DNA from: Mesorhizobium sp. SARCC-RB16n
GTDB taxonomy: Bacteria > Pseudomonadota > Alphaproteobacteria > Rhizobiales > Rhizobiaceae
Direction: 5' to 3'
Assembly: GCF_008520305.1 (NCBI RefSeq)
Contig: NZ_ML703253.1
Span: 62,001 to 126,000 of the forward strand
DNA: 64,000 nt
The position numbers and the translations under genes were made by a program. How positions within the stretch are numbered: the stretch's first letter is position 1; every line of letters starts with the position of its first letter. Shown piece after piece: positions 44,263-64,000 of this stretch. The notes under the pieces were generated by a model. That model ran no database searches. It worked only from the letters and a program-made list of their open reading frames with translations, and was not told the origin of the DNA.

Positions 44263-45414
44263 TCACTCCGCCGGCATGGCGCGCTGCGGCAGCGTAAAGC
44301 CCATCTGCTTGCGCCTTTCCGGCCGCTTGCGCGTCAGCGCCAGCACCATCCCCATCGAGATGGCGATGGCGATCTGCGAGGAGCCGCCATAGGAGATGAA
44401 GGGCAGCGTCATGCCCTTGGCCGGCACCAGCTGCAGGTTGACGCACATATTGATGACGGCCTGCAGGCCGAACACGGTGACCAGACCGCCGACCGCATAA
44501 CGGGTGAAGTCGTCATGTTCCTTCAGAGCCGTGTTGAGGCCGCGCAGCACGATGAAGGCGAAGATCGACATGATGAAGAAGCACATGATCAGCCCGAACT
44601 CCTCGCCCGCGACCGAGAAGACGAAGTCGGCATGGCTGTCGGGAATGACCCGCTTGACCGTGCCCTCGCCCGGCCCGACCCCGAACCAGCCGCCATTGAT
44701 CAGCGCATCGCGGCCCATGTCGACCTGGAACGTGTCGCCTTCGCCGGTGAGGAACTTGTCGATGCGCAGCGCGACGTGCGGAAACACCGTATAGGCGGCG
44801 AAGACGCCGCCGACACCGGCGGCGCCCAGCACGATGATCCACAGCCAGGGAAGCCCCGCCATGAAGAACATGATGCCCCAGGTGCCGGTGGTCAGCATGG
44901 TCTGGCCGAGGTCCGGCTGCGCCACCAGCAGCGACACGACCAGCACCAGGAGCAGCATGGCGAACAGATTGCCGGGAATGTCGGGCTGGCGCTTGTGTTC
45001 GGCGAACAGCCAGGCGCACATGATGACAAAGGCCGGCTTGAGGAATTCCGAAGGCTGGATCGACAGCCCGGCGAGCGACACCCAGCGGCGCGCCCCCTTC
45101 ACCTCGACGCCGACATAGAGCACCGCCACCATCAGCACCAGCATAAGGCACAGCATGATCAGCGACATGCGCCGGATCTGCCTGGAATCGAGGAAGGAGA
45201 CCGCCAGCATCACGCCGAGCGCAGGCACGGTGAAGATGATCTGTCGGGTGGCGAAGTGGAAACTGTCGAGGCCGATGCGTTCGGCGACCGCCGGGCTTGC
45301 CGCGAAGGACAACACGATGCCGAGCCCCATCAGCGACAGGAACGCCGCCAGGAACCAGCGATCGATGGTCCACCACCAGGTTGCGACCGGACTTTTATCG
45401 AGACGGCTCTGCAT
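44263..45414 (-). CDS. ftsW: SEDS-family peptidoglycan polymerase FtsW
   Basis: The 383-residue protein has ten membrane spans. The SEDS signatures are [17 protein letters not shown], the long periplasmic loop with [20 protein letters not shown], and [19 protein letters not shown]. FtsW polymerises septal glycan with FtsI. The ATG at 45414 shares a base with the murD stop (TAATG) and has GGAGGGG upstream; the frame extends 35 residues further without membrane-protein character. Confidence 0.94.
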
Positions 45415-49386: not shown

Positions 49387-50837
49387 GCGGCACGCTCCCT
49401 GAGCGCGGCGCGCACTTCCTCGTGGTCGGAGAAATGCAGGGTTTCCGAGCCGATCGTCTGGCCTTCCTCGTGGCCTTTTCCAGCCACGATCAGCGTGTCG
49501 CCGGCATGCAGCATGCCGACAGCCTCGTGGATTGCCTTGCGCCGGTCGCCGATCTCGATGGCGCGGGGCGCGGCGGCAAGAATGGCGGCACGGATGGTTT
49601 CGGGCACTTCGGAGCGCGGATTGTCGTCGGTGACTATGACGACATCGGCAAGCCGTGTCGCGATCTCGCCCATGATCGGCCGTTTGCCACGGTCACGATC
49701 GCCGCCGCAGCCGAACACCACCATCACGCGCCCGGTGGTGAACGGACGCACCGAGGCCAGCACGTTCTCCAGCGCATCGGGCTTGTGGGCGTAATCGACA
49801 TAGACCGGTGCGCCGCTTGCCGTGGTGCCGACTAGGTCGAGCCGGCCCGGCGCGCCTTTCAATTTCTCCAATGCCGCCAAGGCCTTGGCGACAGGTGTTC
49901 CAGTGGAAATGGCAAGTCCTGCCGAAACCAGCGCATTCGCGATCTGGAAATCGCCAGCGAGCGGCAGGTCGATCTCGTATATCACACCGTCGGCCTCGAC
50001 CTCGGCGCGCTGGCGATGACGCTCATGCTCGACCCGCTTCAGCCTGAGAAAATCGCCGTGGCGGCCGACCGTCAGCACGTCAAGCCCGGCGGCCCGCGCC
50101 GCCTTTATCGTCGGTTCCGACCACGGATCATCGGCGAAGACGATGGCGGGTGCGCCCTTCGGCAGCAGCGTATCGAACAGGCGCAATTTGGCGCGATGAT
50201 AATCCTCGACCGTCGGATGGTAATCCATGTGGTCTCGACCGAGATTGGTGAAGCCGCCAGCGGCGAGCTTGACGCCGTCCAGGCGGCGCTGATCGAGCCC
50301 GTGGCTGGAGGCCTCCATCGAGGCGTGGGTAACGCCGGCATCCGCCAGTTCCCTCAGCAACTGGTGCAGGGCGACCGGATCGGGTGTCGTCAGCGAACCG
50401 TATTCATTGCGGCCGGGCGCGACCACGCCGGTGGTGCCGATCGAGGCGGCTGCATATCCCGCCTGCTCCCATATCTGCCTGGTGAAGGCGGCGACCGACG
50501 TCTTGCCGCTGGTACCGGTCACGGCGACCATGGTTTGCGGCTGTTTGCCGAAGTAGCGGGCGGCACTCAACGCCAGTGTCAGGCGCGGATCATCGACCGC
50601 CAACACCGGAACCGGCAAATCGCCAAGGGCGCTGCCTTTGCCCGCGACGATCGCGGCAGCGCCACGAAGGGCCGCATCGGCGGCGTAGCTCGCGCCATCA
50701 GCCCTGGTTCCGGCAAGCGCGAAAAAGACGACGCCGGGGTTCACCTGGCGGGAATCGGACGAGATGCCGGTAACCTCCAGATCGGCGGAAGCTGTTCCTT
50801 CGACTGGCAGGATACCGGCTAGATCTTTGAGCTTCAT
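49383..50837 (-). CDS. murE: UDP-MurNAc-tripeptide synthetase
   Basis: The 484-residue Mur ligase adds the third stem residue. The ATP loop is [17 protein letters not shown], and [17 protein letters not shown] contains DNPR, the motif of enzymes that use meso-diaminopimelate rather than lysine. The ATG at 50837 has GGGA upstream, 54 bases after the ftsI stop; the upstream frame extension is unlikely. Confidence 0.95.
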
Positions 50838-50891
50838 CGAGTCCCGTTCACCGCAACAAAATAGCGCGCAGTTGCCGGCGCGCCGCAAGAA

Positions 50892-52616
50892 TCACTGATA
50901 GGAAACCAGCGTTGCACCATTTTCATGGCTGAAATCTGGCTTCACGCCAAGCATGGCCGCTGCACGCCTGATGATATTGCCGGCCATCACCCCAGCATTG
51001 TTGGCAGCGACGTCGGTCATCCCCGGCTTTTCCGGATGCGGGGCGTCGGCGATCGTGAACACCAGATATTGCGGATCGTCCATCGGGAAGGCGGCGACAA
51101 AGGTGTTGAAATTCAACTCCTTCGAGTAACGGCCGTTGATGACCTTCTCGGCCGTTCCAGTCTTGCCGCCGACGCGGTAGCCGGGGACCCGGGCGTTTCT
51201 GGCCGACCCCTTCTCGGCATTGAGCGAATAGAGATAGCGCATGCCCTCGACAGTCTTTTCAGTAACCACTTTCTTGGCCGCCGCCATCGCATCCTCCTGG
51301 CTGCGGACCAGGAATGTCGGCTGCATCAGGAAGCCGCCATTGACCAGTGCCGCGCAGCCGACAGCCGCTTGCAGCGGCGTCGTCGACACGCCATGGCCGA
51401 AGGCGATGGTGAACGAATTGACCTGCTTCCAGACCTTGGGCTCGGTCGGGCGGGCGACTTCGGGCAGTTCGGTCTGCATCTTCTCCAGAATGCCGAGGCG
51501 ATGCAGGAATTCGCGGTGCGCCTCGATGCCAACCAGTTCGGCCTCCCTGGCCGACCCGATGTTGGACGAGTAGAGGAACACCTCCGGCAACGACAGCACA
51601 CGGTTCTTGCCGTGGAAATCGTGAATGGCCTGGTGGCCGACCCGGATTGGATGCGAAGCGTCGAAGCGGCTCGACATCGTCGCCTTGCCGGAATCGAGCG
51701 CCATGGCCGAGGTGAAGCTCTTGAAGGTCGAGCCCATCTCATAGAGCCCGGCCGACATCCGATTGAGCCGGTCCTTGTCCTGTGCATTGTAGGGATTGTT
51801 CGGATCAAAATCCGGCACCGAGGCCATGGCCACCACTTCGCCGGTCTTGACGTTGAGCACGACGGCACCAGCGCCCATGGCGCGATAGCGTTCCAAGCCG
51901 GCGGCGATCTCGTCGCGCACTACATGCTGGACGCGCAGATCGATCGAAAGCTTCACAGGCCTGAGATCCCTCGCCACCGCGAGGCCCGACGCCTGCAGGT
52001 CGCTCAGGCCCTGCTCATCGATATATTTCTCCATGCCGGAGATGCCCTGGTTGTCGATGTTGGTCAGGCCGACAATGTAGGACGAGGTTTCGCCGCTCGG
52101 ATAGAAACGGCGCTTTTCGGTGCGGAAGCCAAAGCCCGGAATGCCAAGCTGCATGATGTCGGCCTGCTGCTTGGGCGTCAGCTGCCGCTGCAGCCAGACG
52201 AAGCCTGCACCGCTCTTCAGCTTGTGGTAGGTCTGCTCGTAGTCGATTTCGGGTAGCACTGTCGACAGCTTCTCGATCGCCTCGTCGGCATCGACGATTC
52301 GGCGCGGCTCGGCGAACAGCGACGCCGTCTTGATGTCGGTGGCCAGCACTTCGCCGTTGCGGTCGACAATGTCGGGGCGTGAGGCTGTCACCCGGCTTTG
52401 CGGACCGCCCGACAGGTCGGGTGTCTGGAAACCGAGATAGACCAGCCGCCCCGATATGATCGAGAAAATGCCGAAGAACACCGCCATCGTCATCACGATG
52501 CGCGCCTTGCCCTTGCCGCCGGTCGCCTTGCGGGCGCCTTCGACCACGATCGATCCGTCCCCACCCGTCCTGGCGCGGCCGACCGTGGCGAAGCGCTTCA
52601 GCAGTTTGCCGATCAT
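50892..52616 (-). CDS. ftsI: septal transpeptidase FtsI (PBP3-type)
   Basis: The 574-residue class B penicillin-binding protein cross-links septal peptidoglycan with FtsW. It has a basic cytoplasmic tail, one membrane anchor (VMTMAVFFGIFSIISGRLVY), a dimerisation domain, and the three transpeptidase motifs: SxxK in YEMGSTFKSFTSAMAL, SxN in YSSNIGSAREA, and KTG in GYRVGGKTGTAEKVING. Its ATG overlaps the ftsL stop by four bases. Confidence 0.95.
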   Translation of the reverse strand: MIGKLLKRFATVGRARTGGDGSIVVEGARKATGGKGKARIVMTMAVFFGIFSIISGRLVYLGFQTPDLSGGPQSRVTASRPDIVDRNGEVLATDIKTASLFAEPRRIVDADEAIEKLSTVLPEIDYEQTYHKLKSGAGFVWLQRQLTPKQQADIMQLGIPGFGFRTEKRRFYPSGETSSYIVGLTNIDNQGISGMEKYIDEQGLSDLQASGLAVARDLRPVKLSIDLRVQHVVRDEIAAGLERYRAMGAGAVVLNVKTGEVVAMASVPDFDPNNPYNAQDKDRLNRMSAGLYEMGSTFKSFTSAMALDSGKATMSSRFDASHPIRVGHQAIHDFHGKNRVLSLPEVFLYSSNIGSAREAELVGIEAHREFLHRLGILEKMQTELPEVARPTEPKVWKQVNSFTIAFGHGVSTTPLQAAVGCAALVNGGFLMQPTFLVRSQEDAMAAAKKVVTEKTVEGMRYLYSLNAEKGSARNARVPGYRVGGKTGTAEKVINGRYSKELNFNTFVAAFPMDDPQYLVFTIADAPHPEKPGMTDVAANNAGVMAGNIIRRAAAMLGVKPDFSHENGATLVSYQ

Positions 52617-53008
52617 TGGGCGATGTCTCCGGTCACGACGGGATCCTTGTCGCCCGAAGGCGCCTTGTCGGAATTGTCGGCCATGGCGCCCTGGCGCCCG
52701 TTCAGGATGTCCTGGATGTCGAGGGCCTTGGCAGGCAGGTCGCCCAGGCCCACGATCTGCCGGGCGCTGACTGGCTCCAGTGCGAGCTGGGATTTATAGA
52801 GTTCGGCCAGCCTCTGCAGCCGCGACGGCTGGGTGAGCAGGCTCCAATCGGCCTTGAGCAGGTCGATCGTGTCCTCCTCGTAGCGTATCTCGGCATGGAT
52901 CTTCTGCACGGCCGCCAACTGGTCCTCGGCCTCGCGCTTGGCCTTGTAAGTCAGGGCGGCTGCCGAAACCATGACGGCGATCAGGACAATGTCGCTGGTA
53001 CGAAACAC
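52613..53008 (-). CDS. ftsL: cell division protein FtsL
   Basis: The 131-residue bitopic protein has a short N-terminus, a membrane helix (DIVLIAVMVSAAALTYKAKR), then a periplasmic coiled coil (AAVQKIHAEIRYEEDTIDLL) and the WSLLTQPSRLQRLAE segment shared by FtsL proteins. It works with FtsQ in the divisome. The start is a GTG (53008) seven bases after AGAGG, leaving four bases to the rsmH stop. Confidence 0.85.
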   Translation of the reverse strand: MFRTSDIVLIAVMVSAAALTYKAKREAEDQLAAVQKIHAEIRYEEDTIDLLKADWSLLTQPSRLQRLAELYKSQLALEPVSARQIVGLGDLPAKALDIQDILNGRQGAMADNSDKAPSGDKDPVVTGDIAQ

Positions 53009-53012
53009 GTGC

Positions 53013-54029
53013 TTACCTCTCCCCCGGCCGATCGATGCCGGGAAGTTTTGGAAGGCCGAAGATCGAAAAATCGCCGCCGCGCGCCGGCGCCTCGGTGCGG
53101 ATCGCGGCACGCAGCCTGGCCGAGCGGGCCCGTGGATTGGCGGCGACCTCGGCGTCACCTGCCGTCACGCCGCCACCAGCCTTGCGGAAAGTCGCGGTGC
53201 GCGCCTGCGCCTCCGGCATGTGGCGCGAGCCGGTCATAGCGTCGGCGCGGTCGGCGATGAAGCGCTTGACGATGCGGTCTTCCAGCGAATGGAACGTCAC
53301 CACCACAAGGCGCCCGCCAGGCTTCAGCGCGCGTTCGGCCGCCAGCAATGCCCTGGCCAATTCGCCGAGCTCGTCATTGACGAAGATGCGCAGCGCCTGG
53401 AAGACGCGCGTCGCCGGATGGATCTTGTCCTTTGGCGCCCGGCCGATATGCGTCTCGATCGCGTCGGCGAGTTCCAGCGTGCGCTCGAACGGCCGCTTTT
53501 CGCGCCGGGCCTCGATCATGCGGGCGATGCGCCCCGCGTGACGCTCCTCGCCGAGAAAGCCGAAGATGCGGGCAAGGTCGCCCGGCTTGAAACTGTTGAC
53601 GACATCGGCGGCGCTCAGGCCCGCCTGCGCCATGCGCATGTCGAGCGGGCCGTCGGAGCGGAAGGAAAAGCCGCGCTCGGCCTGGTCGAGCTGCATCGAG
53701 GAGACACCGATGTCGAGCACGACTCCATCGGCGCTTTCAACGTATTCGTCGAGCGTCGAGAACGGCGCCTGCACGAGCCTCAGCCGGCCGCCGGACTGCG
53801 CCTCGAGGTCGCGGCCGGCCGCGATGGCATCCGGATCGCGGTCGATGGCAACCACGGACGCGCCAGCCGCCAGGATCGCCTTGGTGTAACCGCCGGCGCC
53901 GAACGTACCGTCGATGACGATGTCGCCTTCCGCCGGCGCCAGCGCTTCCAGCACTTCGCCAAGGAGGACCGGAATGTGGCGGGCCGATCCGCCAACGGCG
54001 TTGATATCATCGCCGTGGCCCACCGTCAT
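53013..54029 (-). CDS. rsmH: 16S rRNA m4C1402 methyltransferase RsmH (MraW)
   Basis: The 338-residue SAM-dependent enzyme methylates N4 of C1402 in 16S rRNA. It has [15 protein letters not shown], the SAM loop [39 protein letters not shown] and [12 protein letters not shown]. The ATG at 54029 overlaps the mraZ stop (ATGA). The frame stays open far upstream across mraZ, but only this part is RsmH. Confidence 0.95.
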
Positions 54030-54499
54030 TCCGGTCGCTCCCCAGCCTTGGCCTCGTGAGCCTTCGTCCCCTGCCGAAGCTGCAAAAGCCTGGCCCGAGC
54101 CTGTGCCCCATAGGTCGCAAGCCGTCCCGGCTCCCAGATCTGAAAGAAATTGCCGCGCCCGACAAAGGCCACCTCCGCCGAGATGCCGGTATGTTCGCGA
54201 ATGAAATCGGTCATGGTTATGCGGCCATCCTGGTCGAGTTTCAGGAATGCGCCGTCGCCATGGCAGAAGAACGACATGTCGTCGGCCGTCTGAAGGAACG
54301 GATCTTCCTGAGCGATGCGCTGCTCGTAGCGGTCGAGCAGGTCGAGCCCGCCGACATCCATCGCCGGCAGGTCCAGGCAACGCAGCGCATAAAGCTCCGA
54401 ATAGCTGCGCCTCTGCACCACGGCACGGAAATGCGCCGGAACGGACACCCGCCCCTTCGCGTCGATCCTGCTCACCGTGTTCGACAGAAACCGGTCCAT
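54026..54499 (-). CDS. mraZ: transcriptional regulator MraZ
   Basis: The 157-residue protein has two SpoVT/AbrB-like halves: [16 protein letters not shown] near the N-terminus and [19 protein letters not shown] in the second, followed by [12 protein letters not shown]. It is the first gene of the dcw operon and in E. coli represses it by binding TGGGN repeats, which are present upstream here. ATG 54499 is preceded in frame by a GTG (54502); neither has a strong ribosome site. Confidence 0.94.
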
Positions 54500-54684
54500 C
54501 ACACGTTACGGCCGCTTGCGCCGCCGCACCCCTCTTCGTCGTGTCGCACGCGCCACCGCCGCGCGTTGCCTGCCCCGCACCAACCCCGTCCGCACCGGCG
54601 AAAACCGGCAAACGCGCAGCCGCCGCGGCTGCCCGATTGGCGTACGCTTTACCCTGACGCGGAACGAAAGCTTTGGTATGGAAA

Positions 54685-54719
54685 TGGGATATCATGGGGC
54701 ACTATGGGCGTCAACGGGA
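54685..54719 (+). promoter_or_regulatory. MraZ operator: four TGGGN repeats, 10-bp period
   Basis: TGGGA (54685), TGGGG (54695), TGGGC (54705) and a degenerate CGGGA (54715) are each separated by exactly five bases. This is the arrangement reported for E. coli MraZ. The repeats are on the strand opposite to mraZ and lie directly over its promoter, so MraZ should block RNA polymerase. Confidence 0.75.
54686..54714 (-). promoter_or_regulatory. sigma70-type promoter of the dcw operon
   Basis: On the minus strand TTGACG (54714-54709) is followed after 17 bases by TATCCC (54691-54686). A start near 54679 would give a leader of about 180 bases before mraZ. The match at -10 is moderate; the overlap with the MraZ repeats supports it. 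Confidence 0.55.
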
Positions 54720-54824
54720 ATAGGCGTCACAAACACGCACGTCAGGCCGATGAGCGCAGCCTGACAGCACGTCTCGTCTTTATGATCCATTAAGCCTAAC
54801 GAAGCGTTAAGCTTAATTTCTTCC

Positions 54825-54836
54825 CACTAGCGGGAC
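54825..54836 (+). promoter_or_regulatory. candidate phage RNA polymerase promoter 1
   Basis: CACTAGCGGGAC matches the core of the two stronger candidates at 54894 and 58028 and the CACTATAGGGA core of T7 promoters. The upstream half differs from the other two, so it is the weakest of the three. Confidence 0.45.
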
Positions 54837-54893
54837 GAACCCCCGAACGCCTTGAAATCCCCGGCTTTGCGCTGGGGTTTCAGCCTCTTTCCC

Positions 54894-54913
54894 GATCATT
54901 GCACTGGTGGGCC
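54894..54913 (+). promoter_or_regulatory. candidate phage RNA polymerase promoter 2
   Basis: GATCATTGCACTGGTGGGCC agrees with 58028-58047 at 17 of 20 positions. The CACT-NNN-GGG core has the same spacing as the T7 promoter. It lies about 60 bases before the first phage gene. Confidence 0.6.
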
Positions 54914-54971
54914 AAATGCTGTGACAGATCGGTCCCTGAAACAATCCCTGTTACACCAAGGAGAACTGACC

Positions 54972-55325
54972 GTGAACATCAATTCCCACCTCGACGGCCA
55001 CGTAAGCATTACCGTCGAACCAGTAGGCCCATATGGCGACCCATGGCTCTGCCTCGACGGCTACTGGAGGAGCGACCCCGACGCGCCCGCTGTGAAGATC
55101 GTGGTCGATGCCTATGGCTACCTATCGATCAAGGCTGAAGGCAGAAAGAAAGCAGTCTGCATCGACAAAGAGTTGCTGACAGTTCTCAGCAGCCTAGAAG
55201 CGCTGCTCGACGACTTTGAAGAAAGCCTTGCCGCTGGTGCCTGCCCGGATGTTCAGTCGGTTCTAGCCATGGCCACGGCGCGTAATGCAGCCTTTGGGCG
55301 TTTCGTGGTCTTGAGGGCTGCCTGA
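54972..55325 (+). CDS. phage early protein, unknown
   Basis: The 117-residue soluble protein has no recognised family. The N-terminal half is beta-rich (HVSITVEPVGPYGDPWLCLD, then VKIVVDAYGYLSIKAEGR) and the C-terminal half helical and acidic (TVLSSLEALLDDFEESLAAG). It is the first gene of the phage module, in the position where T7 phages carry host-takeover proteins. The GTG at 54972 is preferred because AAGGAG lies eight bases upstream; the open frame from 54852 crosses promoter sequences. Confidence 0.6.
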   Translation: MNINSHLDGHVSITVEPVGPYGDPWLCLDGYWRSDPDAPAVKIVVDAYGYLSIKAEGRKKAVCIDKELLTVLSSLEALLDDFEESLAAGACPDVQSVLAMATARNAAFGRFVVLRAA

Positions 55326-55561
55326 TGGCTAAGAACCGAACAGGCGTCCACATCCTCGCCAACCGCGCCGGCCTCTCCTACGCAGACACCAAGCTGCTCC
55401 TCTTCGACATCATGCTGAACACCTGTCGGGCTGCTTCAGCGGCTCGAACGCTGGCTATGGCCATCGGCGGTGACCAGCATTTCGTCCCTCTCGAACACCA
55501 AGGAAGACGCATTGACCCAACACGACCACTTACTCCAGCGCCAGATCGAGCTGGAGATTGA
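55325..55561 (+). CDS. small phage protein, unknown
   Basis: The 78-residue basic protein opens with NRTGVHILANRAGLSYADTK and has no known domain. Its ATG overlaps the previous stop (TGATG) and its 3' end overlaps the RNA polymerase gene by about 50 bases, so it is coupled to both. The late part could be a fortuitous extension. Confidence 0.5.
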   Translation: MAKNRTGVHILANRAGLSYADTKLLLFDIMLNTCRAASAARTLAMAIGGDQHFVPLEHQGRRIDPTRPLTPAPDRAGD

Positions 55562-58028
55562 AATGTCGGGCCTCGGGCGGGATCGCTACCTCTCCCGGGT
55601 CCGCAAGAACGTAGACAAGGAGCGCGGCTATGAGACGGATACGGGGCGCACGATCCTCGAAAGCGTGGTCGGTCCCGTCGCAGCGAGCATCACGAAGTTT
55701 GTCGACGAGGTGTACTCGGGTCGTCCTGGGCCGCGCGCCGTCGCCGCGAAGCTGATCAAGGACATGGACCATAGCGTGGTCTCCTATCTCGCCTGCAGGG
55801 CAATCCTCGGGCGCATGATGAAGCCGCGCGCTCCGGTCCTCCTGACGCTGGCCGTGGCGGTTGCCCGTGCGGTTGAGCTGGAAGCCCGGTTCACTGAGTT
55901 CCGCAAGCAGGACAAGGATCGGTTCGACTATGAGCTGCGCAAGCTGTCTGATGACGGCGCGACCGAGCAGCACAAGGCCGTCGTCCTCACCTTCGCCATG
56001 GGCAAGCACAACATCGCCTGGGACAGGTGGAGCCGGACGCAGATGATCCACCTCGGCATCCGTCTGGTCGAGCTGTTCGCGGAGAATACTGGCCTAATCA
56101 TGATCCAGCAGGCCCATGAGGGTGGCGACAAGAACGCCCCCAAGGACCAATACCTCGTCCACCTGAGCGAGCGCGCCATGGCATGGATCGACCAATCCAT
56201 CCGTGGTGGCCAGCACCTATACCCCGACTTCCTACCCATGCTGGTCCCGCCGAAGGACTGGACGGGGCTCTCAGGTGGCGGCTATTACACCGACCTCGAC
56301 CGTCCTCTTAAGCTCGTCCGCAGGGCAAGCAAGAAGCAGTTCGAGCTGCTCAAGCGCAAGCTGGCCGAGACGCAGCACAGGGGTGTCCTCCTGCGTGGTC
56401 TCAACGCCATTCAGCGGACGCCTTGGCAGATCAACCAGCGGGTCCTCGACGTCATGACCGTGATGGCCAAGACGAATGAGGGCATCGCCGGCCTCGTGCC
56501 GGGGGACAGTCCCAAGCCGGATCGACCCATCGGCATCCCTGAGGATGTCGACCCCAAGACGCTGCCTCCGCATCAGCAGAAGCAGCTCCAAGAGTGGAAG
56601 TGGGCTGCCCGCGACGTCTACACCGAGAACCTCCAGCTTCGCCAAGACCGGCTCCATCAGGAGACCCTGTTCGGGCTGGCTCAGCGGTTCCGCGACGAGC
56701 GGGCGATCTACTTCCCACACAACCTCGACTTCCGTGGCCGCGCCTATCCGGTTCCTCTGGTCATGCATCCGCAGGCCGGCGATCCGGTCAAGGCCCTGCT
56801 GCGGTTCGCTGAGGGGAAGCCTCTCGGGGCCGATGGCGCGCGCTGGCTGGCCATCCATGGGGCGAACACGTTTGGCGTCGACAAGGTGTCGTTCGACGAG
56901 CGCGTCAAATGGGTTGACGAGAACCATACTCGAATCATTTCGTGTGCCCGTGATCCGTTTGAGGATCGCTGGTGGACTGAGGCCGACAAGCCTTGGTGCT
57001 TCCTGGCGTTCTGCTTCGAGTACCGCGACTACATCAACGGCTTGGGTAGGACCGACTTCGTCTCGCACCTCCCTATCGCCCTGGACGGCTCCTGCAATGG
57101 GCTACAGCACTTCTCGGCCATGCTCCTCGACGCTGTCGGCGGGCGGGCTGTGAACCTGATCCCGGCGAAGAAGCCACAGGACATCTATCAGGTCGTCGCT
57201 GACCGCGTGATGGAACAACTGCGCGCTATCCTCTCCACTGAAGGGATGAATGCAGAAAGGGGACGATGGGCCTACGAATGGCTCACCATGGGGATCGATC
57301 GCAAGGTCACCAAGCGGCCAGTCATGGTGCTGCCCTACGGCGGAACGCCACGGTCGTGCCTGAAGTACGTCGACGAGGCTGTGAAGGCCAAGATCGCTGG
57401 CGGCTACAAGCATAACCTGGGCGACGATCTGAAGAAGGCCATCGGGTTCCTGTCCAGCATCATCTGGGACAGCATCGGGGACGTGGTCATCGCCGCTAGG
57501 GAGGCCATGGGGTGGCTTCAGAAGACGGCCAGGACAATCGCTAAGGTGAACCTTCCGATGCACTGGGAGACGCCGAGCGGGTTCGTGGCCTACCAAGGCT
57601 ACGTCAACTTCAAGTCGCGGCAGATCGAGACGAAGATCGCCGGCAAGCTGGTCAAGCCTCGCGTCTATGAGGAGACCGACCTGATCGACGTGTCCAAGCA
57701 GGCTACCTCGATCAGCCCCAACTTCGTCCACTCCATGGACGCCTCTGCCATGATCCTCACTGTCGACGAGCTGGCTGCCAAAGGTCTCACCGACTTTGCC
57801 ATGATCCACGACAGCTATGGCACCCACGCCTGCAACACAACGCTGCTGGCCTCGACCCTCCGCAAGGTGTTTGTCGAGATGTACCAGGGCGATCCACTGA
57901 CCAAGCTGCGGGACCAACTTGTCCTGCAGTCACTCGTCGCTCCCGACATTGGAGCGTTCGAAGAGCTTCCCTCGAAAGGAGACCTCGACCTGTCACAGGT
58001 CACCAAATCAGACTTCTTCTTCGCATAG
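55512..58028 (+). CDS. T7-like single-subunit DNA-directed RNA polymerase
   Basis: The 838-residue phage polymerase (T7: 883) transcribes phage genes from its own promoters. Key residues align with T7: the metal-binding Asp in LDGSCNGLQHFSAML (about 525), RKVTKRPVMVLPYGG with Lys about 601 and Tyr about 609 at T7 spacing, and the second metal Asp in MIHDSYGTHACNT (about 767). The C-terminus ends KSDFFFA, like the FAFA foot of T7. The TTG at 55512 follows AAGGAAG; a GTG at 55470 would add 14 residues. A promoter candidate begins at its stop codon. Confidence 0.95.
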   Translation: MTQHDHLLQRQIELEIEMSGLGRDRYLSRVRKNVDKERGYETDTGRTILESVVGPVAASITKFVDEVYSGRPGPRAVAAKLIKDMDHSVVSYLACRAILGRMMKPRAPVLLTLAVAVARAVELEARFTEFRKQDKDRFDYELRKLSDDGATEQHKAVVLTFAMGKHNIAWDRWSRTQMIHLGIRLVELFAENTGLIMIQQAHEGGDKNAPKDQYLVHLSERAMAWIDQSIRGGQHLYPDFLPMLVPPKDWTGLSGGGYYTDLDRPLKLVRRASKKQFELLKRKLAETQHRGVLLRGLNAIQRTPWQINQRVLDVMTVMAKTNEGIAGLVPGDSPKPDRPIGIPEDVDPKTLPPHQQKQLQEWKWAARDVYTENLQLRQDRLHQETLFGLAQRFRDERAIYFPHNLDFRGRAYPVPLVMHPQAGDPVKALLRFAEGKPLGADGARWLAIHGANTFGVDKVSFDERVKWVDENHTRIISCARDPFEDRWWTEADKPWCFLAFCFEYRDYINGLGRTDFVSHLPIALDGSCNGLQHFSAMLLDAVGGRAVNLIPAKKPQDIYQVVADRVMEQLRAILSTEGMNAERGRWAYEWLTMGIDRKVTKRPVMVLPYGGTPRSCLKYVDEAVKAKIAGGYKHNLGDDLKKAIGFLSSIIWDSIGDVVIAAREAMGWLQKTARTIAKVNLPMHWETPSGFVAYQGYVNFKSRQIETKIAGKLVKPRVYEETDLIDVSKQATSISPNFVHSMDASAMILTVDELAAKGLTDFAMIHDSYGTHACNTTLLASTLRKVFVEMYQGDPLTKLRDQLVLQSLVAPDIGAFEELPSKGDLDLSQVTKSDFFFA

Positions 58029-58062
58029 ATCGTTGCACTGGCGGGACATTCCTTCCAGTGCA
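58028..58062 (+). promoter_or_regulatory. candidate phage promoter 3 with overlapping hairpin
   Basis: GATCGTTGCACTGGCGGGAC (58028-58047) begins at the polymerase stop codon and matches candidate 2. The segment TGCACTGG also pairs with CCAGTGCA (58055-58062), giving an 8-bp hairpin with a 12-base loop that could end read-through or act as a processing site. Confidence 0.6.
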
Positions 58063-58113
58063 TCAATAGCCCCTCCACTAGCCCTACGAAACATTCTCGA
58101 AGGATTTCACCTA

Positions 58114-58314
58114 ATGCAGAACATCACCATTCGCATGGGCGCTGCCCACCACGACATCACCGTTGGTTCGGTCAACATCGACCTAGCTGCCGCCTCCAAG
58201 ACGGATCGATACGAGGTCCGCAAGACCCTGATCGAGGGCCTGAAGGAGAAGGGCTACTTCGGCAAGAAGGAACAGCGCAAGGCCGTCTTCCGCAACCGGA
58301 GGGCTGCTGCATGA
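58114..58314 (+). CDS. small basic phage protein, unknown
   Basis: The 66-residue protein has a beta N-terminal part (ITIRMGAAHHDITVGSVNID) and a strongly basic helical end (EKGYFGKKEQRKAVFRNRR), so it may bind nucleic acid; that is inference. GAAGGA lies ten bases before the ATG. It is the first gene after promoter candidate 3, and its stop overlaps the next start. Confidence 0.6.
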   Translation: MQNITIRMGAAHHDITVGSVNIDLAAASKTDRYEVRKTLIEGLKEKGYFGKKEQRKAVFRNRRAAA

Positions 58315-58430
58315 GTGAGGCCATTCAAATCATCGGGGTTCTCGTCGCCGGGTTGTCCCTCTGTGCCATGGCCGGGATCATCATCGGCACCTCCCTCGTG
58401 GCATCCACAAAGTTGTTGGGGCGCCTATGA
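58311..58430 (+). CDS. micro membrane protein 1 (39 residues)
   Basis: The protein is MSEAIQIIGVLVAGLSLCAM followed by AGIIIGTSLVASTKLLGRL: one long hydrophobic helix with a basic end. It starts at the ATGA overlap with the preceding gene and its own stop overlaps the next start. The function is unknown. Confidence 0.5.
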   Translation: MSEAIQIIGVLVAGLSLCAMAGIIIGTSLVASTKLLGRL

Positions 58431-58534
58431 GCAGCGGCCGCAACATAGCGGTCGCCCTGCTGTTGGCCCTGCTGGTCAACCTTCTGGCCATCGACCTGGG
58501 CGTCATCGCGGCAATCACATGGTGGTTCTCATGA
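58427..58534 (+). CDS. micro membrane protein 2 (35 residues)
   Basis: The protein begins MSSGRNIAVALLLALLVNLL and ends AIDLGVIAAITWWFS. It has a single hydrophobic helix, with ATGA overlaps on both sides. It reads like a small phage membrane peptide; no family is recognised. Confidence 0.5.
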   Translation: MSSGRNIAVALLLALLVNLLAIDLGVIAAITWWFS

Positions 58535-58623
58535 GCATCCAGTGGGCTGCCCTGATCATCTCCATCGCAATCATCATCACCTTCATCTCCACCAATTCGA
58601 AAGGTCCACATGCCCCGGCTTAA
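58531..58623 (+). CDS. micro membrane protein 3 (30 residues)
   Basis: The protein is MSIQWAALIISIAIIITFIS followed by TNSKGPHAPA, a single-span peptide. It starts at the ATGA overlap with micro protein 2, and its end overlaps the next gene by 14 bases, which carries that gene's ribosome site (AAAGGT). Confidence 0.5.
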   Translation: MSIQWAALIISIAIIITFISTNSKGPHAPA

Positions 58624-58876
58624 CCGTGACGTGCTGAACACGGCGACCCCTCGGGACGTCGCCATGGCGTCCATGACTGTCCTCGACCGACTGCAGGACT
58701 TCCGCCCCGAAATCCAGATCATGGGCGCAGCCACAGTCTTCCTCACCCTCGCAGACCACCTCGGCATTCCTGCTCAGGAAGCCTTCACGGTCACCAAGAA
58801 CCTCATCAACGGGGACGACGGCAAGCGCGCCGAGTTCCGTGGCATCGACGCATACATGAAAGGCGAACTGAAATGA
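58610..58876 (+). CDS. phage protein, unknown
   Basis: The 88-residue helical, soluble protein contains VAMASMTVLDRLQDFRPEIQ and FLTLADHLGIPAQEAFTVTK. I recognise no family. It overlaps the previous micro gene and the next gene (ATGA), as expected in the compact class II (DNA metabolism) region of T7-like phages. Confidence 0.6.
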   Translation: MPRLNRDVLNTATPRDVAMASMTVLDRLQDFRPEIQIMGAATVFLTLADHLGIPAQEAFTVTKNLINGDDGKRAEFRGIDAYMKGELK

Positions 58877-59232
58877 GCATCAAGGCAGGTGACACCGTAG
58901 AGTGCATCGACACCGTGTCCGGCAGCAAGATCAAGCTTGGCACCCAGTATGTGGTCAGGGAGGTCCGCTACGACGGCTTCCTTCGCTTCGAGGGCATGGT
59001 TGGCAGCTTCCGTCCGTCCCGCTTCCTTGAGGTGGAGCCCAAGACCGCTGGCAAGGCCAAGCCGGCTGCCTTCGGCCAGATCAAGTCGGTCACCGTCAAC
59101 ATGTCCGACATCCATGACGTGCTGACCCAGTACGTCCGCTTCGGCCTCGGCATCAACGCCACGGTCGAGAAGCTGGTCGACAAGTTCCCCGAGGCCGTCG
59201 AGCTGGTCCTGAAGCACGAGGTCGCCGCGTGA
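58873..59232 (+). CDS. phage protein with SH3-like N-terminus, unknown
   Basis: The protein has 119 residues. The first 50 look like a small SH3/KOW-type barrel (VECIDTVSGSKIKLGTQYVV, REVRYDGFLRFEGMVGSFR). The second half is helical (SDIHDVLTQYVRFGLGINAT). The function is unknown. It starts at an ATGA overlap and ends at a GTGA overlap. Confidence 0.6.
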   Translation: MSIKAGDTVECIDTVSGSKIKLGTQYVVREVRYDGFLRFEGMVGSFRPSRFLEVEPKTAGKAKPAAFGQIKSVTVNMSDIHDVLTQYVRFGLGINATVEKLVDKFPEAVELVLKHEVAA

Positions 59233-59354
59233 GCTACCTGACCCTCGCCAAGTTTCACTGGAAGCGCGGTCAGCCGCTGCCGGTCGATCTCTTCATCAAG
59301 CTGACCGACCTGGGCTTCGACGTCGAAGCACTTGAACGCCACTACTCCGTCTAA
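59229..59354 (+). CDS. micro phage protein (41 residues)
   Basis: The GTG start overlaps the preceding stop (GTGA). The protein begins MSYLTLAKFHWKRGQPLPVD and is soluble with an acidic helical end. It has no family that I know. Support comes from the coupled start and the fully open, phage-like codon use. Confidence 0.45.
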   Translation: MSYLTLAKFHWKRGQPLPVDLFIKLTDLGFDVEALERHYSV

Positions 59355-59382
59355 ATCCCTCCACTCACGAGACAATTGCACA

Positions 59383-60144
59383 ATGGCAAACGATACCAAG
59401 AAGAAATCTCTCCCCTCATTCACCTCCCCGCGTCTGGTCTTCGTCTACCCGAAGCTGACCGAGCCGGACTACGGCAACAAGGACTTCCCGAAGCCGGACG
59501 GCGAGTATTCGCTGAAGGGCAAGATGTCGGCTGCCGCACTGGCCGAGTTCACCGCTCGCAAGAACAAGGACAACGTGTCCCTCGACGACCTCTACGAAGA
59601 GGCCAAGCGCGATGCCGAGAAGCAGTTCGCTGAGCTGTCGGTCAAGACACGCAAGGAGTTCGAGAAGAAGAACATCACCGGCCCGGTCATGAACTCACTG
59701 TTCGAGACCCTGTACGACAAGGAGAGCGAGGAAGAGACCGGCGAGGTCTGCCTCAAGTTCACCAAGAAGGCCTCGGGCATCGTCAAGAAGGGTCCGCGCG
59801 AAGGCAAGAAGTGGACGTCGGCTCCCGACATCTATGACGCGCGCGGCAAGAAGATGGTCGGCAAGCTCCCCAACATCTGGGGCGGCTCCGAGGGCAAGGT
59901 GTCCTTTGCCGTCTCGTCCTACTTCATCCCGGGCACGGCGGCTGCCGGCCTCAAGCTGATGCTCAACGGCGTCCAGATCATCGACCTCGTGTCGAACGGT
60001 TCGCGCTCCGCTGACAGCCATGGCTTCGGTGAAGAGGACGGATATGGCTACGACCCGAGCGAGTACCAGGACGAGAACGAAGGCGAAGACAAGTCCGAGG
60101 GTGGTTCCGAGGGCGGCAAGTCGGCAGGCGAAGAAGACTTCTAA
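59383..60144 (+). CDS. T7 gp2.5-like single-stranded DNA-binding protein
   Basis: The protein has 253 residues. The N-terminal OB-fold region has SFTSPRLVFVYPKLTEPDYG, and the middle has VMNSLFETLYDKESEEETGE. The last 45 residues are very acidic and end EEDF. T7 gp2.5 has the same acidic tail with a terminal Phe, which contacts its polymerase and helicase. Gene order (after RNA polymerase, before endonuclease I) also matches T7. The first ATG after the gap, at 59383, is chosen; the longer frame begins inside the previous micro gene. Confidence 0.82.
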   Translation: MANDTKKKSLPSFTSPRLVFVYPKLTEPDYGNKDFPKPDGEYSLKGKMSAAALAEFTARKNKDNVSLDDLYEEAKRDAEKQFAELSVKTRKEFEKKNITGPVMNSLFETLYDKESEEETGEVCLKFTKKASGIVKKGPREGKKWTSAPDIYDARGKKMVGKLPNIWGGSEGKVSFAVSSYFIPGTAAAGLKLMLNGVQIIDLVSNGSRSADSHGFGEEDGYGYDPSEYQDENEGEDKSEGGSEGGKSAGEEDF

Positions 60145-60147
60145 GCC

Positions 60148-60630
60148 TTGCCAAGGCCTTTCCCCAAGCGGACCTCGACGCGGCAGAACGCTGTCGCCAA
60201 GGGGTTCCGCTCAGGGCTCGAAGATAAGGTGGCAGGGGAGCTGGACCGCGCGTCCGTCCCCTACACCTACGAGAGCTTCAAGATCACCTACGAGATACCG
60301 GCCCGGCTGGCGAAGTACACACCTGACTTCCGCCTGCTGGGCAACGGCATCATCGTGGAGACCAAGGGGCAGTTCGTCACGGCGGATCGCCAGAAGCACA
60401 AGCTGATCAAAGAGCAGAACCCGGAACTCGACATCCGGCTCGTGTTCAGCCGCTCAGGCACCCGAATCTCCAAGCAGTCCCAGACCACCTACGCCATGTG
60501 GTGCGAGACCCATGGCTTCCTCTATGCGGACAAGTCAATCCCCCAAGCCTGGATCGATGAGCCACCGACTGCCGGTCGCATGGAGGCCCTCAACGCAATC
60601 CTCAACTCCCAATCGAAGGTCAAGAAATGA
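60148..60630 (+). CDS. T7 endonuclease I-like Holliday junction resolvase
   Basis: The 160-residue protein closely follows T7 gp3. FRSGLEDKVAGELDRASVPY carries the catalytic Glu, YTPDFRLLGNGIIVETKGQF carries Asp, Glu and Lys, and NPELDIRLVFSRSGTRI and ETHGFLYADKSIPQAWI complete the fold. It resolves branched DNA before packaging and helps to break down host DNA. The start is a TTG three bases after the SSB stop. It overlaps the next gene by ATGA. Confidence 0.9.
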   Translation: MPRPFPKRTSTRQNAVAKGFRSGLEDKVAGELDRASVPYTYESFKITYEIPARLAKYTPDFRLLGNGIIVETKGQFVTADRQKHKLIKEQNPELDIRLVFSRSGTRISKQSQTTYAMWCETHGFLYADKSIPQAWIDEPPTAGRMEALNAILNSQSKVKK

Positions 60631-60863
60631 GCATCCTCTCCACCGTCATCAACTTCATCAAGCGCACCCCCTCGACCGCCAAGGCCGTCGCCGGCTTCAA
60701 CAAGGCCATCACCGAGCTGGAGGCTGTGATCGAGCATCACAACGTCAAGGCCGAGCTGATCGACGCCGAGATCGCCATCAAGGTTGCCGCCCAGGTCGCC
60801 GCGAAGGAAGCTGCTGCCGAGGCCGACAAGATCGCCAAGCGCATCCGCAAGCTGGTGGCCTGA
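60627..60863 (+). CDS. small helical phage protein, unknown
   Basis: The 78-residue protein is rich in Ala, Lys and Glu (ITELEAVIEHHNVKAELIDA, VAAKEAAAEADKIAKRIRKL), forming one long coiled-coil helix after a basic N-terminus. It starts in the ATGA overlap with the endonuclease gene. T7 places its lysozyme (gene 3.5) about here; this protein is unrelated to it. Confidence 0.55.
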   Translation: MSILSTVINFIKRTPSTAKAVAGFNKAITELEAVIEHHNVKAELIDAEIAIKVAAQVAAKEAAAEADKIAKRIRKLVA

Positions 60864-60865
60864 TC

Positions 60866-61045
60866 ATGAAGGGCATCATCATCCTCTACGTCGCCACCAT
60901 GGTCGCTGCCTTCTATGGCTGGGTCATCAACCTGATCGACGTGATCCACGCGGCCACCTCGGGCGCACCGTTCACGACCATGCTCATCTGCCGCATCGTG
61001 GGTATCCCGCTGTTCGGCCTGGGCGCGATCCTCGGCTGGTTCTGA
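60866..61045 (+). CDS. small two-span phage membrane protein
   Basis: The 59-residue protein has two hydrophobic helices (IIILYVATMVAAFYGWVINL and MLICRIVGIPLFGLGAILGW) joined by a short loop. Holin-like in size and layout, but no lysis gene is adjacent, so I leave the function open. Confidence 0.5.
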   Translation: MKGIIILYVATMVAAFYGWVINLIDVIHAATSGAPFTTMLICRIVGIPLFGLGAILGWF

Positions 61046-61549
61046 TTGGAACTTGACAGCAAGGCTTGGACGGGTCGAGAGGCCCGTTCCAAGTCCTACC
61101 CTTCGGTCACCGAGCTGATCGACAAGTACCTTCCGCGCACGACCCGCCACGAGGTCTACGCGATGTCCCGCGCCTATGAGGCCCGGATCACTGACCTGAT
61201 GCACACCATCCACGACTACCATCTGCGCTGCGAGGCCATGGCCAAGCACATGGATGGCATGGAGAAGGAGTTCTACAGCAGGGTCGCCATTCCGGTCTCC
61301 TTCGGGAAGCTGGAAGCCCACGCCGAACGGCACCCCTACGAGATGCTCAATAGCTACACGGTCAACTGGCGCCCCGATCCGGCGCGGTGCCGGGTGGTTA
61401 TTCGAGACGACTACGCGATCAACCAGCAGGACCACCCTCACCTCTTCGAGATGGTCTGCAGGCAGTTCGAGGAAGCGCTCAAGGCCGACCTGATCCCGAG
61501 GCTCCGCAACGAGTTCGGGAAGCTCTACGCGAGCATCAGACGCAGATGA
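61046..61549 (+). CDS. phage protein, unknown
   Basis: The 167-residue soluble protein is mostly helical (YEARITDLMHTIHDYHLRCE) and more beta-like near TVNWRPDPARCRVVIRDDYA. I recognise no family. It seems to start at a TTG immediately after the previous stop (TGATTG) and ends in an ATGA overlap. It replaces nothing obvious in T7. Confidence 0.55.
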   Translation: MELDSKAWTGREARSKSYPSVTELIDKYLPRTTRHEVYAMSRAYEARITDLMHTIHDYHLRCEAMAKHMDGMEKEFYSRVAIPVSFGKLEAHAERHPYEMLNSYTVNWRPDPARCRVVIRDDYAINQQDHPHLFEMVCRQFEEALKADLIPRLRNEFGKLYASIRRR

Positions 61550-61713
61550 TCAGAAGTCTTCTGCAAGGCGTCAGCATTTGTTGGGGCTTCGTCCTCACCA
61601 TCGTCGGCGTACAGGTCGCCTGTGAGATTTCATCCGCCCTGGGCGTAGCCCTGATCATCACCATCGTTGGTCTGGTCATGGGTTTCCTCATCCACGCCAT
61701 CAGGGAAATCTGA
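61546..61713 (+). CDS. small two-span phage membrane protein
   Basis: The 55-residue protein has two hydrophobic helices (VSICWGFVLTIVGVQVACEI and ALIITIVGLVMGFLIHAI). The start overlaps the preceding stop (ATGA) and its stop overlaps the next start (TGATG). It could be a pinholin-like or superinfection-related membrane peptide; nothing proves either. Confidence 0.5.
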   Translation: MIRSLLQGVSICWGFVLTIVGVQVACEISSALGVALIITIVGLVMGFLIHAIREI

Positions 61714-61904
61714 TGACCGCCGCTGAGAAGCTCGCGGTCCTCCGCTACCAGCTCGCCCTCCACGGAGCGACCTTCGTTCTTCGCACGGGGGACAACGTGA
61801 GGGTGCTGGACCCTACCGAGATCATTGGCACTCGCGGCGACCTGATCCTCGTCGACGAGATCGCCCAACGACAGCAGTTCCAGAACAACCCGCCGCAAGG
61901 CTGA
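61713..61904 (+). CDS. small phage protein, unknown
   Basis: The 63-residue soluble protein (LAVLRYQLALHGATFVLRTG) looks like a helix followed by a small beta sheet. It is coupled by TGATG to the gene before it, and its stop directly abuts the primase-helicase ATG. Confidence 0.55.
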   Translation: MTAAEKLAVLRYQLALHGATFVLRTGDNVRVLDPTEIIGTRGDLILVDEIAQRQQFQNNPPQG

Positions 61905-63557
61905 ATGCACGAAACCGACAGTGAGTTCCTCCGCAAGGAGCCATGCCCAAAGTGTGGTTCCCGCGACAATCTCGCCCGGTACACGGACGGCCACGCCTAC
62001 TGCTTCACAGGTGGCTGCCGCTACTACGAACCCGGAGACAATGATTTGACAGAACAGACCGAGGCTTCGGAGCCCCGGACCACAGACTTCGTTCCGCTCG
62101 GTGAGCCATCTGATTGGGCAAGCCGAGGCATCAATCTCGAAAGCGCGCAGAAGTGGGGCTTCACCCGTTCGAACCTGAACGGTCAGCCCGTCCGCTTGTT
62201 CAACTACCGAAACAGCGCGAGCCAGCTTGTCTGGCAGAAGGTCCGGTTCGCCGGCAAAGACTTCCGATCCAAGGGTCACAAGGACGACATGTGCCTCTAC
62301 GGCCAATGGCTGTGGCGGGACGGCGGCAAGCGTGTCGTGGTCGTCGAGGGTGAGCTGGACGCGATCTCGCTCAGCCAGATGCAGGGGCATAAGTGGCCTG
62401 TCGTCTCGATCCCAAACGGGTGTGACGGCGCGGCCAAGGCCCTCCGCAAGAACCTTGCATGGCTGGAGCAGTTCGAAGAGATCGTCCTCATGTTCGATGG
62501 CGATGAACACGGCCAGCGGGCGACCGACGAATGCAAGGTGATCCCGTTCACTCCGGGCAAGCTGAAGATCGCCTCACTGCCCCTCAAGGACGCCAACGAG
62601 ATGCTCATGGCGGGCCGCATCAAGGAGACCATCGACGCCATTTGGGGTGCCAAGGTCTACCGCCCTGACGGTCTCGTCGGGGTCTCGGACATCATGGGCG
62701 ACCTCCTCAAGCCAGTCGAGTGGGGCCTACCGTGGTGCCTGGAAGAGCTGACCAAGCAGACCTATGGCCGGCGCTTCGGTGAGGTCTATGGCTTTGGCGC
62801 CGGCACGGGCATCGGCAAGACCGACTTCCTGATGCAGCAGATCGCGTTCGACATCACCGATCTGAAGCAGCACGTCGGTGCGATCTTCCTCGAACAGAAG
62901 CCCGTCGAGACGGCGAAGCGTGTTGCAGGCAAGTTGGCCGGTAAGATGTTCCACGTCCCCAACGCTGGGTGGACAGCCGAGGAACTGACCCGCGCCGCGA
63001 CCGAGCTGGATGGCAAGCTGTTCTTCTACGACAGCTTCGGCCAGACGGATTGGGAGTTGGTCAAGGGGCATATCCGCTACATGGCGGTGAGCCTTGGCAT
63101 CAAGCTGATCTACATCGACCACCTGACAGCCATGGCCGACACTGGCGACGAGAAAGGCACCCTCGAACAGATCATGAAGGAGATGGCCGGGCTCGCAATG
63201 GAGCTGGGCATCATCATCCACTTCGTCTCGCACTTGTCGACCCCGGATGGGAAACCTCACGAGGAAGGCGGGCGCGTCATGATCCGTCACTTCAAGGGCT
63301 CCCGAGCGATCGGCTTCTGGTCCTACTTCATGTTCGGCCTCGAACGAGACCAGCAGAACGAAGATCCGATCATCGCCACCACCACCATCTTCCGCATCCT
63401 CAAGGACCGCTACACCGGCAGATCGACGGGCAAGACCATCATGCTCGGCTTCAAGCAGGAGACCGGGCGCTTGTTCGTGCGGGAAGACGATCCCTTCAAA
63501 GACAAGGACGTTAATGACCACGGCTTCAACAACGAAGACGACGAACTCCCGTTCTAG
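61905..63557 (+). CDS. T7 gp4-like primase-helicase
   Basis: The 550-residue bifunctional replication enzyme (T7: 566) opens with a zinc ribbon (CPKCGSRDNLARY to CFTGGC) that recognises priming sites. A TOPRIM primase domain follows, with VVVVEGELDAISLSQ and LMFDGDEHGQ. The RecA-like helicase has Walker A GAGTGIGKTDFLM, KLIYIDHLTAM for Walker B, and IHFVSHLSTP. The C-terminus is acidic and ends DDELPF; the terminal Phe is the T7 contact to DNA polymerase. The start ATG directly follows the preceding stop. Confidence 0.94.
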   Translation: MHETDSEFLRKEPCPKCGSRDNLARYTDGHAYCFTGGCRYYEPGDNDLTEQTEASEPRTTDFVPLGEPSDWASRGINLESAQKWGFTRSNLNGQPVRLFNYRNSASQLVWQKVRFAGKDFRSKGHKDDMCLYGQWLWRDGGKRVVVVEGELDAISLSQMQGHKWPVVSIPNGCDGAAKALRKNLAWLEQFEEIVLMFDGDEHGQRATDECKVIPFTPGKLKIASLPLKDANEMLMAGRIKETIDAIWGAKVYRPDGLVGVSDIMGDLLKPVEWGLPWCLEELTKQTYGRRFGEVYGFGAGTGIGKTDFLMQQIAFDITDLKQHVGAIFLEQKPVETAKRVAGKLAGKMFHVPNAGWTAEELTRAATELDGKLFFYDSFGQTDWELVKGHIRYMAVSLGIKLIYIDHLTAMADTGDEKGTLEQIMKEMAGLAMELGIIIHFVSHLSTPDGKPHEEGGRVMIRHFKGSRAIGFWSYFMFGLERDQQNEDPIIATTTIFRILKDRYTGRSTGKTIMLGFKQETGRLFVREDDPFKDKDVNDHGFNNEDDELPF

Positions 63558-63765
63558 CTGGGGCTTTTGGGTGGCCCTCGGGTTCATCTGCTGGGTGGCA
63601 TTCCTCTGCCCTCCAGCCCACTCCGAAGAGAACCACCAGGCACCGCGGAAGTGCCTTCTGGACGTGAGCAAAGCGGACAGCCCCACCCCGTTCTTCATCC
63701 CCTGCGCGAAGGCCGAGCCAAGCGTCCTCCCGATGGTTTGGTACTGGGAGGGCCAAGAGGTCTGA
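63514..63765 (+). CDS. small exported or membrane phage protein
   Basis: The 83-residue protein has a Thr/Ser-rich start, a hydrophobic helix (WGFWVALGFICWVAFLC) and a two-Cys tail beyond it. It overlaps the end of the primase-helicase gene by 44 bases. AAGGA is well placed before the ATG. It resembles a small lipoprotein or signal-anchor protein, but the Cys context (FLCPP) is not a good lipobox. Confidence 0.45.
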   Translation: MTTASTTKTTNSRSSWGFWVALGFICWVAFLCPPAHSEENHQAPRKCLLDVSKADSPTPFFIPCAKAEPSVLPMVWYWEGQEV

Positions 63766-63956
63766 CCTTCGACAACACCAACGAGAACATACCCTCAGCG
63801 CTGATCGTTCGGCGCGAGGGCTCCCGCCTAATCCTCCAAGGCAGAACTGCCAGCATCGTCCTGTTCGCGGAAGCGTGGAGGGACCTTGTGGGCGCAATTC
63901 AAGAGGTAATGAATGGAAACGACAGTCCACAATCTGACGCAACTCCTGCTCGCTGA
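63762..63956 (+). CDS. small phage protein, start uncertain
   Basis: The open frame of about 64 residues (NIPSALIVRREGSRLILQGR, IVLFAEAWRDLVGAIQEV) looks like a real helix-sheet protein. No ATG or GTG is available; a CTG at 63762 after GGAGGG or a TTG at 63738 may serve. It overlaps the next gene by 44 bases. Confidence 0.4.
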   Translation: MTFDNTNENIPSALIVRREGSRLILQGRTASIVLFAEAWRDLVGAIQEVMNGNDSPQSDATPAR

Positions 63957-64000
63957 GAAGGAAGAGAATCGCCAGCTCTACAACCGCTTCAAGGTGATTG
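63913..64000 (+). CDS. partial phage gene running off the window
   Basis: An ATG with AGAGGT six bases upstream opens a frame (METTVHNLTQLLLAEKEENR) that stays open to the window edge. Only 29 residues are visible, helical and charged. The position suggests it precedes the DNA polymerase gene of T7-like phages, but that lies outside the window. Confidence 0.45.
   Translation, partial: METTVHNLTQLLLAEKEENRQLYNRFKVI

Follow-up and report, generated by a model that had tools for sequence, protein, structure and literature searches.

Our analysis of a 64,000-nucleotide stretch of the Mesorhizobium sp. SARCC-RB16n genome (contig NZ_ML703253.1, positions 62,001 to 126,000; hereafter the window) indicates that positions 54809-64000 are very probably the left end of a temperate T7-like phage of the Autographiviridae, near Mesorhizobium phage vB_MloP_Lo5R7ANS, inserted by an integrase at a core of 15 base pairs (bp) between mraZ and a divergent gene for a pyridoxal phosphate (PLP) enzyme. 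The kind of phage is already known; the novelty lies in an attachment site that recurs between mraZ and the divergent gene next to it and is not a tRNA gene. In the literature searched, as judged by titles, we found no report of an attachment site at mraZ or in the dcw cluster. The original prediction, made from this DNA alone, had proposed an integrated T7-like phage beside the cell-wall operon, and a second case at the same site, in Mesorhizobium loti LU, supports that proposal.

The left junction is defined by comparison with strains that lack the insert, as the original prediction had suggested. Six such relatives are collinear with the window from the start of the query (51001 or 51003), the DNA identity being 84-90%, and 54811 is the last aligned position in every one of the six; the alignments of two more distant relatives end at 54808 and 54809. 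Past 54811 the six relatives have a short spacer followed by the divergent gene, whereas the window continues into phage DNA. The common block reads CATTAA followed by GCCTAACGAAGCGTT, after which close relatives read TAGAG and the window reads AAGCTTAAT. The sequence GCCTAACGAAGCGTT (54794-54808), present as a sole copy in the window, is the core of the left attachment site (attL) and the host/phage crossover region. Around it lies an imperfect palindrome (54789-54817), read from the sequence, whose left arm comes from the host and whose right arm comes from the phage.

In M. loti LU both ends of such an insertion can be followed. Its phage contig (NZ_PJRO01000023.1, 44,084 bp; the prophage is also recorded as IMG/VR 2922124256_000001) has the 15-bp core at both its start and its end, with the integrase at one end and the RNA polymerase (RNAP) at the other: it begins with GCCTAACGAAGTGTTAAG and closes with the integrase gene (from 42909, about 72 bp before the core) and GCCTAACGAAGTGTT. 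The first 127 bases of this contig are those that end the mraZ contig, and the last 127 are those that begin a third contig, which runs past the core into the divergent gene; an exact core search of LU gives four matches, on the mraZ contig, at both ends of the phage contig and on the third contig. The order is thus the mraZ side, the core GCCTAACGAAGTGTT, a phage of 44 kilobases (kb) with the integrase at its far end, the core again, and the divergent gene, whose product, judged by eye from its sequence, appears to be a PLP enzyme of the cystathionine type. Joined at the core, the LU flanks (800 bp) align from end to end over 799-806 columns at 81-89% identity with five unoccupied loci of four genomes, and at 68-71% over most of their length with six more distant loci. 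Site-specific integration is customarily demonstrated by just this kind of two-sided structure together with an empty-site alignment, and the comparison fixes the length of the core as 15 bp.

The LU prophage resembles that of the window in its mraZ-side site, its core, its gene module and its RNAP (68% identical), and differs from it at one core base (T for C) and by a DNA identity of about 71% in the RNAP gene. Eight of ten LU proteins compared with PHROGs correspond to an exonuclease, head-tail adaptor, major head, tail and internal virion proteins, a terminase, an integrase and a transcriptional regulator; of the other two, the product of the first open reading frame (ORF) matches families of no known function and one matches nothing. 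The integrase carries PF00589, and the regulator encoded just upstream matches MarR_2 below the Pfam cut-off, with a PHROG match in addition. Within the genus pool of 146 genomes, which includes M. escarrei and M. loti LU, a search with the LU integrase finds a tyrosine recombinase in 120 (LU's own included) at E 1e-10 or better; among the listed matches other than LU's own, identity to the LU integrase is 32-45%, mostly over the C-terminal 110 amino acids. This tyrosine recombinase is perhaps a resident, conserved integrase.

The site itself is highly conserved. The 17-mer CCTAACGAAGCGTTTAG, made up of 14 core bases and three host bases, occurs once, with at most one mismatch, in 129 of the 146 genomes and twice in none, while a control search with the reversed pattern matched in 10 of 146. 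In the six of these 129 genomes that were checked, it adjoins mraZ. In sixteen of the remaining 17 the mraZ locus holds a diverged version of the site, differing from a 26-base motif at 2-6 positions, and in the other, L178, no such version was seen in the stretch examined. M. loti LU is itself one of the 17; its mraZ contig reads AAG after the core, like the window. A longer element upstream of mraZ, TTTAT..TCCATTAAGCCTAACGAAG[C/T]GTTTA (window 54780-54811), was also well conserved in the loci inspected.

The host side, to judge from its sequence, is the dcw cluster of a Mesorhizobium-type chromosome. All of its genes considered here lie on the minus strand: an ftsI/PBP2-like transpeptidase gene (50892-52616; protein match in 393 of 397 genomes), rsmH/mraW (53013-54047; PF01795, E 5e-90) and mraZ (54026-54502; PF02381, E 2e-10; 78-93% identical in all 17 genomes searched). 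FtsI of the window is 92-96% identical to that of the six best genomes, those whose alignments stop at 54811, 86% to that of M. escarrei and 79% to that of M. loti LU. Upstream of mraZ, at 54685-54719 on the minus strand, lies a promoter block with few substitutions in all eight aligned relatives, comprising four TGGG/CGGG repeats at 10-bp spacing, a putative MraZ box of the kind of repeat that MraZ binds, and a promoter-like TTGACG-N17-TATCCC. The MraZ repeat of Mollicutes is different, (AAAGTGKN3)3, according to PMC5282649. A sigma-70 promoter scan of 54400-55600 reported no promoter, and the same interval holds three terminator-like sites, all on the minus strand, against 1.2 expected. From the promoter block to the core is 75 bp, and to the first phage base, 54809, it is 90 bp. 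With the host arm and core kept and the promoter block untouched, the dcw cluster should still be expressed, and the insertion thus probably spares mraZ expression.

Two characters of the Autographiviridae are found in the window, namely a phage-encoded single-subunit RNAP and the collinear order RNAP, single-stranded DNA-binding protein (SSB), endonuclease I, primase/helicase; head, tail and terminase genes of T7 type are present in the LU sister phage, the window covering the left 9.2 kb only. The four replication genes had been described by the original prediction as intact and in T7 order, and all four are indeed open, on the plus strand and matched in Pfam and PHROGs. The RNAP (55512-58028; 838 amino acids with an assumed TTG start; PF00940, E 5e-114; PHROG 414, E 1e-261) is 68-84% identical to those of six phage relatives. 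A six-sequence alignment shows D539, K615, Y623 and D781 (counting from 55470) among its invariant residues; these four are presumably the counterparts of the T7 catalytic residues. The RNAP is followed by a gp2.5-like SSB (59383-60144; PF21265, E 1.6e-14; PHROG 112), a gp3-like endonuclease I (60148-60630; PF05367, E 4e-52; PHROG 945) and a gp4-like primase-helicase (61905-63557; PF21268, PF13155 and PF03796; PHROG 239, E 1e-170). Between these, likewise on the plus strand, are a small gene conserved at 84-99% in all six relatives (58610-58876), a gene without assigned function at 35-64% in five of the six (58873-59232), a small gene matching PHROG 2380 (60627-60863) and a second gene without assigned function at 45-76% in four of the six (61046-61549). 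Ahead of the RNAP, also on the plus strand, are a first phage ORF of 117 amino acids with an assumed GTG start (54972-55325), which had no match in Pfam, by tblastn against phages or in the six relatives, and a small ORF homologous to Lo5R7ANS_17 (55325-55561; 56% identity over 78 amino acids). The module had been predicted to begin within 100-300 bp of the mraZ promoter with the RNAP at its head; phage DNA begins 90 bp from the promoter block, a sharper boundary than had been described, and the order holds from the RNAP on, but the RNAP gene lies about 790 bp from that block and the first phage ORF is the small gene at 54972-55325. T7-like RNAPs are rare in the genus pool: at a threshold of E 1e-20, 5 of 146 genomes have one, and in one of the five it is a fragment.

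The nearest named relative is Lo5R7ANS (Autographiviridae, Pairvirus; KM199771), a phage named in PMC10783043, which has the same gene order as the window from the RNAP on. A megablast search of 50000-64000 against 50,697 phage records returned two records, both of Lo5R7ANS; the matched parts, which begin at the RNAP start, are 82.7% identical on average and span 52% of a 14-kb query of which 4.8 kb is host DNA and only 9.2 kb is phage. By plain blastn the identity to Lo5R7ANS is 75-88% by piece. Protein order is the same in the window, Lo5R7ANS, IMG/VR 2791355132 and the LU phage. Temperate T7-like phages are reportedly also the subject of work by Boeckman et al. in 2022.

A putative integrase lies upstream of the RNAP in Lo5R7ANS (31.6% identical to the LU integrase), as an integrase does in the LUZ100, Pasto, ProddE and CRP-125 records, the distance in these five being 0.3 to 3.3 kb. 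We examined the arrangement more widely by searching 25 virus records chosen from 80 loci, of which 18 (4 of 5 plus 14 of 20) had an integrase match; in these 18, integrase and RNAP lie at opposite ends in 15 and are adjacent in three. In IMG/VR 2791355132_000001, whose RNAP is 84% identical to that of the window, they likewise stand at opposite ends of the record. PMC10134795 describes T7-like phages with an integrase upstream of the RNAP, a MarR-like regulator and tRNA-Leu, and reports integration of Pasto and HTVC019P, so the comparison with integrase-bearing pelagiphages drawn by the original prediction was apt. Tyrosine integrases are given for nine of ten Autographiviridae roseophages in PMC11092137.

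In several of these relatives the attachment site appears to differ from that at mraZ. A tRNA-Leu lies near the integrase or the RNAP in Lo5R7ANS, Pasto, LUZ100, IMG/VR 2791355132 and the genome G425. Lo5R7ANS has its tRNA-Leu between integrase and RNAP, and therefore probably uses another attachment site; the LUZ100 and Pasto records have theirs beside or near the integrase. In IMG/VR 2791355132_000001 the integrase lies about 270 bp from the tRNA-Leu, and no repeat of the tRNA-Leu 3' end was found at the RNAP end, where the record stops early. No tRNA-Leu is listed in the inspected stretches of ProddE and CRP-125, and none was found in the relatives L006, L088 and L090. For the window, a tRNA gene was considered as the integration target and rejected, as the window contains no tRNA at all.

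The left junction of the window, the agreement of its position and core with attL of LU and the two-sided structure in LU are direct observations, and from them a mechanism can be proposed. In this mechanism a phage tyrosine integrase would insert the phage by site-specific recombination at the 15-bp core GCCTAACGAAG[C/T]GTT in the intergenic region between mraZ and the PLP-enzyme gene. The phage attachment site (attP) would lie between the integrase and RNAP genes, and recombination there would open the circular genome, such that the RNAP end comes to adjoin mraZ and the integrase end the PLP-enzyme gene. As integrase and RNAP would then lie at opposite ends of the prophage, an integrase is to be expected beyond the window, about 34 kb past its end, with the right end of the prophage about 44 kb from the left; this integrase is probably like that of LU. 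MarR-like control may keep the prophage silent, and the prophage may be able to excise.

Several observations weigh against this interpretation. The window ends within the phage, so that the right end of its prophage lies beyond, and the core is seen in the window at the left end only, whereas in LU it is repeated at both. On the phage side the agreement with LU next to the core extends over three bases (AAG) before the sequences diverge, the first ORFs of the two phages show no match, and the first 500 phage-side bases (54809-55314) match phage records at chance level only. An exact match to a 20-mer spanning the core and the phage side occurs in none of the viral contigs; an 18-mer search of these contigs gave one stretch, the LU contig itself, and a search for relatives of the LU integrase at mraZ likewise returned only LU (one of six pattern matches confirmed). 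In addition, an occupied site is present in only one of 394 family-pool genomes, that of LU.

The window's ending inside the phage, with no return to bacterial DNA, would also be compatible with a contig chimera in which a bacterial chromosome is misjoined to a phage contig. We consider this extremely improbable: the join coincides, to the base within the shared core, with the independent junction in LU, where both ends are visible and the core differs by one base, and both flanks are of Mesorhizobium type. The original prediction, which had named a chimera as its alternative, is upheld on this point. An unlikely, though conceivable, explanation is that a defective remnant, the left part of a T7-like prophage incapable of excision, is all that is left. 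Decayed relatives do seem to exist in G458 and G425. In G458 (L209:1167-1746) an N-terminal RNAP fragment, 73% identical to that of the window over 71 amino acids, abuts by eye an integrase-like C-terminal fragment, and the pair of sequences looks as if an internal deletion had joined both prophage ends; in G425 (L208) there is a shortened T7-like RNAP match (34%, residues 9-617), with the tRNA-Leu of that locus at 348-432. Against decay in the window, those ORFs that have homologues are open and keep the order seen in Lo5R7ANS and L156. For the window prophage, the evidence bearing on activity consists of these open genes.

For LU, the structure of the assembly offers a further indication. 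Its breaks on either side of the phage fall precisely at the core, with 127-base overlaps, and if these represent the assembler's word length, the 15 bases common to the two attachment sites flanking the prophage could not alone have broken the graph. This suggests that attP DNA, as free phage or as a tandem copy, was also sequenced in the LU sample; the empty bacterial site (attB), in turn, is absent from the assembly, given that the mraZ contig continues across attL. Such attP DNA beside the prophage would also fit a transient integration within a lytic cycle, as distinct from lysogeny. The T7-like cyanophages treated in PMC8776855 provide the precedent, since that paper describes integration at tRNA-Leu without stable lysogens. 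We regard this as very unlikely for the mraZ-site phages, as the integrated form was assembled as the chromosome path both in LU, where the mraZ contig passes through attL, and in the window, and LU carries MarR-type regulators, below the Pfam cut-off but with a PHROG match. Integration of a temperate phage by its integrase thus remains our preferred interpretation.

Other features of the phage end concern its possible control. A 16-bp motif, TTGCACTGGCGGGACA, stands directly after the RNAP stop (58033-58048, plus strand), and a copy with two mismatches, TTGCACTGGTGGGCCA, lies near the left end (54899-54914, plus strand). It recurs at the same place after the RNAP in three of six relatives scanned, IMG/VR 2791355132_000001 (one mismatch), L088 and L090 (three mismatches each), and is not found there in Lo5R7ANS, L075 or L006; matches with three or four mismatches are scattered over host and phage DNA. 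We regard it, on its sequence, as a candidate promoter for the phage RNAP, and a phage promoter upstream of the RNAP is described for LUZ100 in PMC10134795. Lo5R7ANS has its own candidate phage promoter, three related copies sharing TAGGGCCTCTACTAG (L001:12971-13008, 22916-22953 and 44986-45023), one of them just after the RNAP, and a string similar by eye occurs in the window at 58065-58087. A hairpin without a T run lies inside the phage end (54853-54882, plus strand; -18.4 kcal/mol, z -1.8), but it is weak, 10 of 200 shuffled sequences being as stable. Elsewhere in the window, G+C falls to 0.52-0.55 at 17001-18000 and 25001-27000, compared with about 0.65 in much of the window.

Because the element that contains the core, upstream of mraZ, is strongly conserved, it is possible, if quite improbable in our estimation, that the phage lineage has adopted a cell-division regulatory site as its switch. 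If so, integration and excision would alter the sequence context of the mraZ and PLP-enzyme gene promoters and allow the lysogen to adjust its division, and the host/phage boundary, with a phage promoter immediately within attL, would act as a control region in both directions.

The lysogeny of T7-like phages is still termed ambiguous in PMC10134795. Temperate T7-like phages form a small set, to which our findings add a precisely defined attachment site with its core, both junctions (in LU) and empty sites. Two diverged phages in two hosts occupy this site, which lies within the promoter region of the dcw cell-division cluster and is not a tRNA gene. The window strain and M. loti LU form a natural pair for direct tests of T7-like lysogeny, and the integrase could be of use for directing DNA into a site that is conserved and single-copy in Mesorhizobium.

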